From assembly GCF_002879615.1 (NCBI RefSeq), contig NZ_PNRF01000010.1, positions 62,001 to 126,000 on the forward strand: a stretch of DNA of 64,000 nucleotides, read 5' to 3'. Each line of letters starts with the position of its first letter. Position 1 is the stretch's first letter. Shown one piece after another: positions 47,780 to 49,800 of this stretch. The stretch comes from Billgrantia endophytica. Its GTDB lineage: Bacteria; Pseudomonadota; Gammaproteobacteria; Pseudomonadales; Halomonadaceae. The translations under genes and the position numbers were made by a program. Below the pieces are notes generated by a model, which searched no databases, was not told the origin of the DNA, and was given only the letters and a program-made list of their open reading frames with translations.

Positions 47780-48769
47780 TCACGGGGTGTGGATCGGCAG
47801 GCACACCACGCCATGATCGGGCATCGGCTGGAGCGGTGCCTTGAAGTGAGTCTCGAATTCCCCAAGCCGTTCGCGGACGAAGCGCAGGAAGAGCTCGGTC
47901 ACCGGGGTGGGAAAACGATCGCGTGGATAGACCGTGCACCAGGAACGACGCAGTGGAAAGCCGGGCAGCGCCAGTTCGGCCAGCAAGCCCATGCCCAGCT
48001 CCAGCTTCACGGCAAGACGTGGCAGGATGGCGACCCCCAGGTGGGCCATGACGCCCTGCTTGATGGCTTCGTTGGTCCCCAGTTCCATGGTATGGGAAAG
48101 CGCGACATCCTGCTCGGCGGCCAGTTGCTCGAAGGCGGTGCGGACACCTGAACCCGGTTCCCGCATCAGCAAGTAGTGCTGGGCAAGGTCTTCCAGGGTT
48201 GGGCCGGTAGCCTCCAGTAGCGGGTGTCCTGGCCAGACCACGGGAATCAATTCGTTGTCCAGGATTGGCATGAACACCAGATCGTCGTCGTCTTCAGGCA
48301 CCATGGCCATGATCACGAGGTCGTCTCGCCTGGCGGCCAGCCGCTCCAGTGCCTGGCTTCGGTTACACACCCGCAGGCACACCTGCACATTGGGGTAATG
48401 CGCGCGAAAGCGGGCGATCAGATGCGGGACCACGTACTGGGCCGTGGAGACCGCCGCCAGGTTGAGCTCACCGGAGATGGTGCCGTCCATGTCCGATAGC
48501 GTCATCTGCAGCCGCGATACCTGGCCGAAGATGGCCTGGGTCGAGACCGCCAGGGCGTCCGCAGCCGGTAGTGCATGCAGTGTCTTGCCGGTGTACTTGA
48601 ACAGCGGCTGTCCCAGCGCCTGCTCCAATTGGCGAACCTGTGCACTGACGGCCGGCTGGGTCAGGCCAAGCTGCTCGGCGGCTCGCGAATACGATTGCTG
48701 GCGATGGACGGCCTGAAAGACCTGCAGTTGGCGGAAGGTCAGGCGGTTCAGCAGCCTTGGCATGGTCAT
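47780..48769 (-). CDS. LysR-family transcriptional regulator
   Basis: The N-terminal winged helix (LTFRQLQVFQAVHRQQSYSRA, with AAEQLGLTQPAVSAQVRQLE) resembles the CbbR-like group. The effector domain follows from about residue 95 (ELNLAAVSTAQYVVPHLIARF). The ligand is unknown. It is divergent from the AccC-like gene at 48880, and the gap carries a perfect inverted repeat, so that gene is its likely target. The start at 48769 or two codons later is possible. Length 329. Confidence 0.92.
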   Translation of the reverse strand: MTMPRLLNRLTFRQLQVFQAVHRQQSYSRAAEQLGLTQPAVSAQVRQLEQALGQPLFKYTGKTLHALPAADALAVSTQAIFGQVSRLQMTLSDMDGTISGELNLAAVSTAQYVVPHLIARFRAHYPNVQVCLRVCNRSQALERLAARRDDLVIMAMVPEDDDDLVFMPILDNELIPVVWPGHPLLEATGPTLEDLAQHYLLMREPGSGVRTAFEQLAAEQDVALSHTMELGTNEAIKQGVMAHLGVAILPRLAVKLELGMGLLAELALPGFPLRRSWCTVYPRDRFPTPVTELFLRFVRERLGEFETHFKAPLQPMPDHGVVCLPIHTP

Positions 48770-48799
48770 CGGCGAATCCGCTGAAGGGCGCAGTGCCCG

Positions 48800-48826
48800 T
48801 TGAGGAACTGACCTTCATGCTATCAC
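48800..48826 (+). promoter_or_regulatory. Possible promoter of the AccC-like gene
   Basis: TTGAGG (48800-48805) and TATCAC (48821-48826), the latter with an upstream TG (extended -10), have a 15-base spacer. Transcription would begin close to the left arm of the inverted repeat at 48830. Tentative. Confidence 0.35.
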
Positions 48827-48829
48827 CGC

Positions 48830-48860
48830 CAGCGGGGGCCGGCCATGCCTGCCCCCGCTG
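48830..48860. promoter_or_regulatory. Perfect inverted repeat in the LysR / AccC-like divergent region
   Basis: CAGCGGGGGC (48830-48839) and GCCCCCGCTG (48851-48860) are perfect 10-base arms with an 11-base spacer, ending 19 bases before the ATG at 48880. An 11-base spacing is common for LysR-type sites. A leader-RNA hairpin is the alternative reading. Confidence 0.55.
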
Positions 48861-48879
48861 TCAACGAGGAATGTCCTGA

Positions 48880-49800
48880 ATGCAGCGCGAAGGGTCATTG
48901 AGAGAAAAGCCGCGGGACTGGCGCCGTATCATGGTAGCCGGCACGGGTCTCGCGGCGCTTCGGGCCGGACAGGCTTGTACCGAACTGGGGCTGGCCTGGT
49001 GTGACAGTGCCGGCGAAACCGGGAATGCGCTGGTGGCACGCGCGCGCCGGCTTGGCTGTGACGTGCTGCATCCGGGCGAGGCTGGGCCGGCGGAGCAACT
49101 GGGACTGGCTCAGGCAAGTCGACAGGCAGGGCTCGTCTTCATCGGCCAGCGGGAGGCACTGATGGCGGCCATGCACGATAACCAGGCCAGCCGCCAGCTG
49201 CTACGCGAGGCGGGAGTACCGCTCAGCCAGGCCGGACGGGATGCGGCACGGCTGCTTTTGCCGGTTCTGGTCGACAGGAAGGGCCAGGCACTGGCACTGA
49301 TCGAGCATGAGATCCTCGATGAGACCACTGCGATGGCGCCAAGTGATCGTCTGACACCTGAACAGCGCGTCTACCTTGGGCGACTGGCCATACAGGGGGC
49401 CCGGGCAATGGGGCTGGTGGGGCTTGCGACGATGAGTTTCACCCTGGAGGGCAACCGGCTGGGTTTTGACGCCATGCGCCCTGGCTTGACAGGCCGGGAA
49501 GGCCTGGCCGAGGCGCTGACCGGGCTCGATCTCTCCGTCGAGCAGTTGAGACTGGTGGCGGGGGAACGACTGCGTCGCCCACGGGTCGGCCATATGGGCC
49601 ATGGTCCCGGACGCCCCGGTCAGGCCCGTCTTCGCCTGTTGCACACCCCCCGGGGACGTCTTGGCGGAGGGCCCGGGGTACGCCTCGATCAATCCAGCGA
49701 TTTCGGCGAGTCGATGGCCAGGTTGCTGGTCTGGGGGCGCGATGGCGCGGAGGCGAGTCGACGTGAAAGGCGTGCCTTGACAGAGTGGAATGACGCTTAG
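48880..49800 (+). CDS. Shortened biotin-carboxylase-like protein lacking the ATP lid and catalytic residues
   Basis: At 306 residues it follows AccC (446) in order. RRIMVAGTGLAALRAGQACTE (less its last residue) fits the first Rossmann-like strand, and DVLHPGEAGPAEQL and AGLVFIGQREALMAAM fit the IHPGYG and VFIGPRA regions. LTGLDLSVEQLRLVAGERL fits [16 protein letters not shown], and MARLLVWGRDGAEA fits [13 protein letters not shown]. About 80-90 residues holding the glycine-rich ATP lid, K159 and H209 are absent. GDKVSA is HDNQAS, and [10 protein letters not shown] is replaced by DAMRPGLTGR. Carboxylation is therefore very unlikely. GAGGA precedes the ATG. Confidence 0.75.
   Translation: MQREGSLREKPRDWRRIMVAGTGLAALRAGQACTELGLAWCDSAGETGNALVARARRLGCDVLHPGEAGPAEQLGLAQASRQAGLVFIGQREALMAAMHDNQASRQLLREAGVPLSQAGRDAARLLLPVLVDRKGQALALIEHEILDETTAMAPSDRLTPEQRVYLGRLAIQGARAMGLVGLATMSFTLEGNRLGFDAMRPGLTGREGLAEALTGLDLSVEQLRLVAGERLRRPRVGHMGHGPGRPGQARLRLLHTPRGRLGGGPGVRLDQSSDFGESMARLLVWGRDGAEASRRERRALTEWNDA

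Follow-up and report, generated by a model that had tools for sequence, protein, structure and literature searches.

A predicted lidless pseudoenzyme, almost certainly reduced in place from pycA, beside a PycR-like regulator in Billgrantia

Introduction

Why should a bacterial lineage keep an open gene for a biotin carboxylase relative from which the ATP lid and the catalytic residues are gone? The question is raised by a gene at positions 48880..49800 on the forward strand of the window, the whole stretch of 64,000 nucleotides of Billgrantia endophytica DNA that was analysed. Its open reading frame is intact, starts with ATG, spans 306 codons and is preceded by a putative ribosome-binding site visible in the sequence. 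The original prediction described the product, here denoted psBC, as a relative of the AccC encoded in the same window that had been stripped of its lid and catalytic residues, noted a regulator next door, and considered plain decay an insufficient explanation.

Results and discussion

A biotin carboxylase scaffold without lid and active site

The relationship of psBC to biotin carboxylases is not a matter of chance because both of its Pfam matches exceed the Pfam cut-offs: Biotin_carb_N (1.7e-6; residues 49-95), which corresponds to the end of the N-domain, and CPSase_L_D2 (1.3e-9; residues 129-232), which covers positions 99-209 of the 211 in this ATP-binding profile and thus its latter half. 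Of the residues that can be aligned with the AccC of the window, 77 of 288 are identical; psBC has no equivalent of a further 158 AccC residues, which are spread over eight stretches. The missing stretches are a piece of the N-domain (AccC residues 32-58), the lid (133-161 and 168-208), small loops (229-233, 341-347, 356-360 and 377-386) and the C-terminus (413-446). According to the alignments with AccC and PycA, a linker of residues 118-123 (49231..49248) takes the place of the lid. Thus, the 306-residue product is indeed a lidless biotin carboxylase relative, but the extent of the loss had been drawn differently in the original prediction, which gave 80-90 missing residues that included the lid, K159 and H209. 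The lid is absent and K159, like Q233, falls into an alignment gap, whereas the lid loss amounts to about 70 residues and H209 lies just outside it (R124 in psBC); in addition, the loss extends to a portion of the N-domain and to the C-terminus.

The predicted substitutions in the active site hold throughout: K116 of AccC is aligned with N101, and the glutamate of the FEF motif, E276, with S186. The equivalent of E288 is A198, and N290, R292, Q294, V295, E296 and H297 are replaced by R, G, T, G, R and E, respectively, so that the original 10 residues of the former catalytic strand (residues 198-207; 49471..49500) now read AMRPGLTGRE. The same pattern is seen across the relatives of psBC described below, with residue counts taken over 44 of the 46 copies (one frameshifted copy, G084, and one cut at a contig end, G061, were excluded). 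None of the 11 catalytic or ligand-binding positions that can be aligned is kept in at least 95% of these copies; E296 is kept in 18% and E288 in 2%, and the position of R338 is occupied by Arg in 33 of the 44, although this stretch is poorly aligned. A homolog of an enzyme with its catalytic residues missing is a pseudoenzyme by that criterion, and psBC, as judged from the alignments, is one.

Despite these losses, psBC is confidently predicted to adopt the biotin carboxylase fold. An AlphaFold2 model built on an alignment of 26 of the 46 copies (A1) reached a pLDDT of 86.9 and a pTM of 0.85, and among the 50 PDB entries listed it superimposes on biotin carboxylases and pyruvate carboxylases (Z 31.5-32.7, rmsd 2.2-2.9 over 285-294 residues); the best Foldseek E-value is 6.8e-25. 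The best sequence-profile match in the PDB is 5ks8, the alpha subunit of the M. flagellatus pyruvate carboxylase, in which, as reported, residues 131-201 (the B sub-domain) were swapped for a short linker to obtain crystals; the lidless mutant was inactive, but its complex could be purified just as that of the wild type (PMC5059739). The natural lid cut of psBC is nearly identical to this designed one.

Selective retention of the scaffold can be gauged from the 161 positions common to AccC and PycA, a set defined on 27 PycA sequences with L093 and L107 excluded (29 PycA rows were collected, of which L093, badly extracted, reads as a gap, leaving 28 for other counts). Of these positions, 127 align with psBC, 34 being kept in at least 95% of the 44 copies and 40 in at most 5%. 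We then considered a small set of five positions taken as dimer interface, R16, R19, E23, R366 and R401 of AccC, of which R366 is presumably such a position. R16E, E23R and F363A occur as mutants in PDB entry titles, and R19, E23 and R401 are named for the biotin carboxylase dimer interface in the literature (PMC5059739). Four of the five show no variation among the 44 copies: R16 and E23, which correspond to R28 and E35 in the predicted interface helix of psBC (48961..48984), R366 (R268; 49681..49683) and R401 (R295; 49762..49764). The fifth, R19, is Gln in all 44 (Q31 in the window). The persistence of the dimer face, raised in the original prediction, is seen at four positions of five, a retention higher than at the other positions (30 of 122; p = 0.018) or at the other charged positions (p = 0.015).

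Origin from pycA at the same locus

The regulator next door is confirmed as a LysR-type protein of 329 amino acids, encoded on the reverse strand at 47780..48769 (HTH_1, 2.2e-20; LysR_substrate, 9.7e-52) and separated from psBC by a divergent intergenic region (48770..48879). Relatives of this LysR at E 1e-60 were found in 42 of the 61 sampled genomes of the family (24 genera), four of which, at only about 50% identity, may not be orthologous. In 28 of the 29 LysR loci returned from other genera, a PycA match adjoins the LysR gene, the exception being G134 with DUF3141 in that place; the full-length pycA occupies the same position as psBC and is divergent from the same LysR gene. By its domains and its divergent position next to pycA elsewhere, the LysR of the window is PycR-like. 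In P. aeruginosa, PycR is encoded beside the pyruvate carboxylase operon and is reported to upregulate it (PMC5059739). E288, N290 and Q294 are present in 27 of the 28 usable PycA sequences (exception, G111), and pycB, encoding 604-622 amino acids with the biotin motif MKM, directly follows pycA in all eight regions fetched wide. At the window locus, no pycB is adjacent, and the gene after psBC encodes a DUF3141 protein.

The original prediction had taken AccC as the relative from which psBC arose, and here the evidence points elsewhere. In a profile search of the 61 family genomes, the closest relatives of psBC among the matches listed are PycA proteins (1.1e-34 to 3e-25), with AccC-length proteins elsewhere at 4.8e-18 or weaker. 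A search for full-length PycA in the genus of the window matched 89 of 90 genomes (not G069), and among the matches listed none exceeded 54% identity, the best being AccC-like; against the same query, identities of 71-100% were obtained for PycAs from sister genera. Given the PycA beside LysR elsewhere, the profile scores and the lack of PycA in these genus matches, pycA has been reduced in place and pycB lost; psBC is almost certainly pycA gutted in place. Duplication of accC was accordingly rejected as the source, because PycA scores better and the same LysR locus holds pycA in other genera.

Could psBC still dock on a PycB-like protein, namely an OadA-type subunit encoded elsewhere in the genome? 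Relatives of PycB are present in 86 of the 90 genus genomes (52-65% identity over the best stretch), that of the window's genome lying on another contig, and the lidless M. flagellatus alpha subunit mentioned above purifies in complex. Nevertheless, the helix at the C-terminus that binds the beta subunit and carries most alpha-beta contacts is missing from psBC (AccC 413-446 and beyond are unmatched), which makes the original holoenzyme unlikely, and genomes that lost psBC still have the OadA-like gene; we consider such docking very unlikely. In two genomes (G005 and G042), the OadA-like gene appears fragmented over several reading frames, at two positions in the case of G005, which reflects either breaks or assembly faults.

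Distribution and selection

Genes for psBC were detected in 46 of the 90 genomes of the window's genus (E 1e-15 or better); the twelve named contigs on which it was seen comprise nine of Billgrantia and three labelled Halomonas, and B. desiderata and B. kenyensis are among the carriers. A sample of 341 genomes of the order, in which the family is represented by 15 listed genomes, two of them in the genus, yielded no match at E 1e-30 beyond the window's own copy, and in the 61 family genomes (24 genera) the best listed matches other than own copies are open frames of 467-535 amino acids. Within the genus, the lidless form is thus common and is carried by the deepest branches of the AccC tree, as a result of which a recent lid deletion in one strain, an alternative left open by the original prediction, was rejected. 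Of the 46 copies, 44 are open from end to end, and in the assembly with the frameshifted copy (G084) the LysR gene is broken too and the AccC frame is short.

Is psBC nevertheless a relic in slow decay, largely or wholly without function? The gene is absent from 44 of the 90 genus genomes, and supported branches of the AccC tree (a quick one-gene tree of 88 of the 90 genomes, without G060 and G069, and with two partial outgroup rows) force at least 9 changes of its presence. Over the 576 of 946 pairs that passed the dS filters (G084 and G061 excluded), the median dN/dS is 0.46 and the maximum 0.76, the median being three to five times that of LysR (0.16), AccC (0.088) or PycA (0.127; 166 pairs from other genera). 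Against decay, the 44 copies remain open at identities down to 45-54%, 34 of the 127 universal positions are conserved as described above, and among the 40 closest pairs (a list that includes G084 and G061), 35 have dN/dS values of 0.12-0.45. Of the other five close pairs, three involve L031 (0.53-0.63) and two (dS of 0.002 and 0.006, giving 3.4 and 0.40) have too few changes to judge. Selection on psBC is relaxed but purifying. Mere decay is therefore, in our estimate, quite improbable, and classification as a pseudogene with a broken or neutral frame was rejected, given the single frameshifted copy and values below 1 in all 576 pairs. The earlier view that psBC is more than plain decay is upheld by the same numbers, and relatives within the genus carry the lidless form as well.

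Association with the LysR regulator

The LysR gene is present in all 46 genomes with psBC; psBC without LysR was never seen. The reverse, LysR without psBC, occurs in five genus genomes, where LysR adjoins DUF3141. Both genes are missing from 39 genomes, of which 25 were checked, and in 23 of these 25 LipA lies directly beside DUF3141, which amounts to a clean removal. As for the other two, G012 has TopA at this place, and the locus of G065 ends at a contig edge, so that its missing LysR may be an assembly gap. In seven to eight of nine independent contrasts on the AccC tree, psBC and LysR change together, and never oppositely (sign test, p 0.008-0.016). The two genes are adjacent, and joint deletion therefore explains part of this association. 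In the LysR tree, the 28 regulators of pycA loci cluster together and are separated by a long branch (0.46) from those of the genus; nine differences are fixed between the LysR proteins of pycA loci and those of psBC loci, none of them within residues 1-75, where the helix-turn-helix is located. As an aside, five loci (L264-L268, from G043, G044, G037, G011 and G018) carry a divergent LipA-like gene in the opposite orientation, 47-50% identical to the LipA of the window, a possible replacement of lipA.

Adjacency also lies at the root of another explanation, in which psBC is a stand-alone metabolite sensor or scaffold that owes its association with LysR to position only. Joint deletions, as at the 23 LipA-DUF3141 junctions among 25 checked genomes, and the disappearance of the old operator from the psBC side (see below) fit this; however, psBC without LysR was found in 0 of 46 genomes, and the nucleotide-binding residues checked are lost, which makes this explanation decidedly improbable.

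The same distribution bears on a role in fatty-acid synthesis, with psBC as a pseudo-subunit of acetyl-CoA carboxylase that pairs with AccC or binds AccB and lowers or scaffolds synthesis in the manner suggested for the non-biotinylated BADC proteins of plants. The invariant R16, E23, R366 and R401 are compatible with pairing to AccC without demonstrating it, and BADC is a precedent for which inhibitor and assembly roles have both been proposed (PMC11926652). Nonetheless, psBC derives from PycA rather than from AccC, it always accompanies the PycR-like LysR, AccC is also encoded in the genomes that lost psBC, and R19 is changed in all copies, so that we consider this role unlikely. The association with the PycR-like regulator points to the pyruvate/malate node and not to fatty-acid synthesis.

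A candidate operator shared by pycA and malic enzyme

An exact inverted repeat, ATAAG-N6-CTTAT, is present in the divergent region of 25 of the 28 pycA loci of other genera; the three loci without it comprise two of genus g13 and one of g23. The two g13 loci (L076 and L077) encode full-length PycA, and g13 genomes keep the malic-enzyme site described below. Before psBC, the best match to the repeat has at least four mismatches in 46 of 46 loci, and no site with up to one mismatch occurs in the window; retention of the operator at psBC was therefore rejected. Among the five loci with LysR only, L119 has a site with two mismatches and four have sites with 4-5.

The window's own genome contains two exact sites, the same number as in a reversed-pattern control, and this count alone proves nothing; only comparison across genomes does. 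One of the two (L243 1501-1516, C36) starts 162 bp before a gene for malic enzyme, the best NCBIfam model of which, NF009501, gives 553 bits; the score misses the cut-off of 1178 on account of the much greater length of the model. Upstream regions of the malic-enzyme gene were obtained for 88 of the 90 genus genomes (not for G062 and G066). A site at -161 to -180 is found with at most two mismatches in all 49 genomes with LysR, and with at most one in 47 of them. Of the 39 without LysR, four have a site at that place (G065, G060 and G027 with at most one mismatch, G036 with two), and seven reach two mismatches anywhere in 400 bases; in shuffled sequences, one mismatch was reached in 0.3% and two in 8%. 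In contrasts on the tree, site and LysR change in the same direction in about seven of eight cases and never in reverse (p 0.008-0.06, depending on threshold and pairing).

The pattern extends to other genera, where all 20 genomes with LysR have the site with at most one mismatch and none of the eight without LysR, two of which belong to the window's genus, reaches even two (30 loci for 57 matching genomes, 28 scored together and L269 and L291 earlier). Thus, ATAAG-N6-NTTAT located about 160-190 bp before malic enzyme tracks the presence of LysR in the genus and in the family (L269-L358, L361-L386). From this co-occurrence, the PycR-like LysR very probably controls malic enzyme, a predicted regulon link in which the target would have been kept after pycA died. 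In P. aeruginosa, growth on propionate is reported to raise pycA, pycB and PycR and to lower MaeB (PMC9765439). The second exact site in the window's genome (L242 1501-1516, C29) lies between two divergent genes, which we take to encode formyltetrahydrofolate-deformylase-like and glutamine-synthetase-like proteins.

Possible function of psBC

What psBC might do can be proposed along the following lines. The ancestor was almost certainly PycA, the alpha subunit of a pyruvate carboxylase with two subunits, encoded beside LysR. Before the genus diversified, pycB and the operator before pycA probably disappeared from this locus, and the encoded protein was left without its ATP lid, its catalytic residues and the C-terminal helix that binds the beta subunit, but with the biotin carboxylase core and its dimer face. 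The protein may dimerise, would make no carboxybiotin, and may serve the module in a non-catalytic accessory role, in which binding to PycR or to an enzyme of the pyruvate node, and thereby tuning of the switch, would be the most likely mode. Our preferred explanation, tentative and somewhat short of an even chance with the function included, is accordingly that psBC is a PycA gutted in place and turned into a dead dimerising accessory of PycR or of the pyruvate-malate module, which suggests a dead enzyme given a new job beside an old gene switch. The narrower proposal, that psBC is a non-catalytic dimeric co-regulator that binds the PycR-like LysR or a pyruvate-malate partner and sets malic-enzyme control, is doubtful. 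The five genomes in which LysR and the malic-enzyme site persist although psBC is absent indicate that psBC is dispensable for that link, and the missing operator at psBC, the many losses, the weak constraint and the change of R19 to Gln all count against an accessory role.

Comparison with known proteins

Like PycA of the P. aeruginosa and M. flagellatus type, psBC belongs to a LysR-adjacent locus and has the core fold, and its best NCBIfam model, NF005525, also names the full-length PycAs of sister genera. It differs in that the lid, the C-terminal helix, pycB and the operator are missing and none of the 11 alignable catalytic residues remains, and its score of 86.3 bits misses the family cut-off of 768. 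With AccC it shares the fold and the identities given above, but it is more distant from AccC than from PycA and has neither lid nor active site (TIGR00514, 63.1 bits; cut-off, 626.5). Missing the defining features of both families, it is filed as neither. The BADC proteins of plant acetyl-CoA carboxylase are likewise retained non-catalytic relatives of a subunit of a biotin-dependent carboxylase (PMC11926652), but they derive from the carrier subunit and have a known partner, whereas psBC derives from a biotin carboxylase. The BPTD_3102 family carboxylase-like proteins (NF046056) also appear shortened, as judged by name and by the model of 207 positions; the psBC score of 18.7 bits lies below the cut-off of 200, with the best stretch at residues 267-302, and no paper on this family was found in the literature searched. 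PADLOC gave no match to a defence gene.

Pseudoenzymes are a known kind, and a retained lidless biotin carboxylase core was not found described in the literature searched, which was screened by titles and included few subscription journals. In psBC, nature offers a clear case in which lid and active site were lost and dozens of species nevertheless kept the scaffold. Because sister genera still have the intact ancestor at this locus, the route by which an enzyme became a pseudoenzyme is open to direct test. If the co-regulator reading is true, a biotin carboxylase fold would be at work in gene regulation. The predicted PycR-like/malic-enzyme operator across the family may further hint at a balance between pyruvate and C4 acids that is set with or without pyruvate carboxylase.

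Finally, the full-length PycA of G111 (genus g23; L111 4411-5823) carries K116R, an altered glycine loop, E288A, N290S and Q294E; the adjacent PycB retains its biotin motif and the pycA operator is absent. By these substitutions, it is perhaps a second, independent dead PycA.
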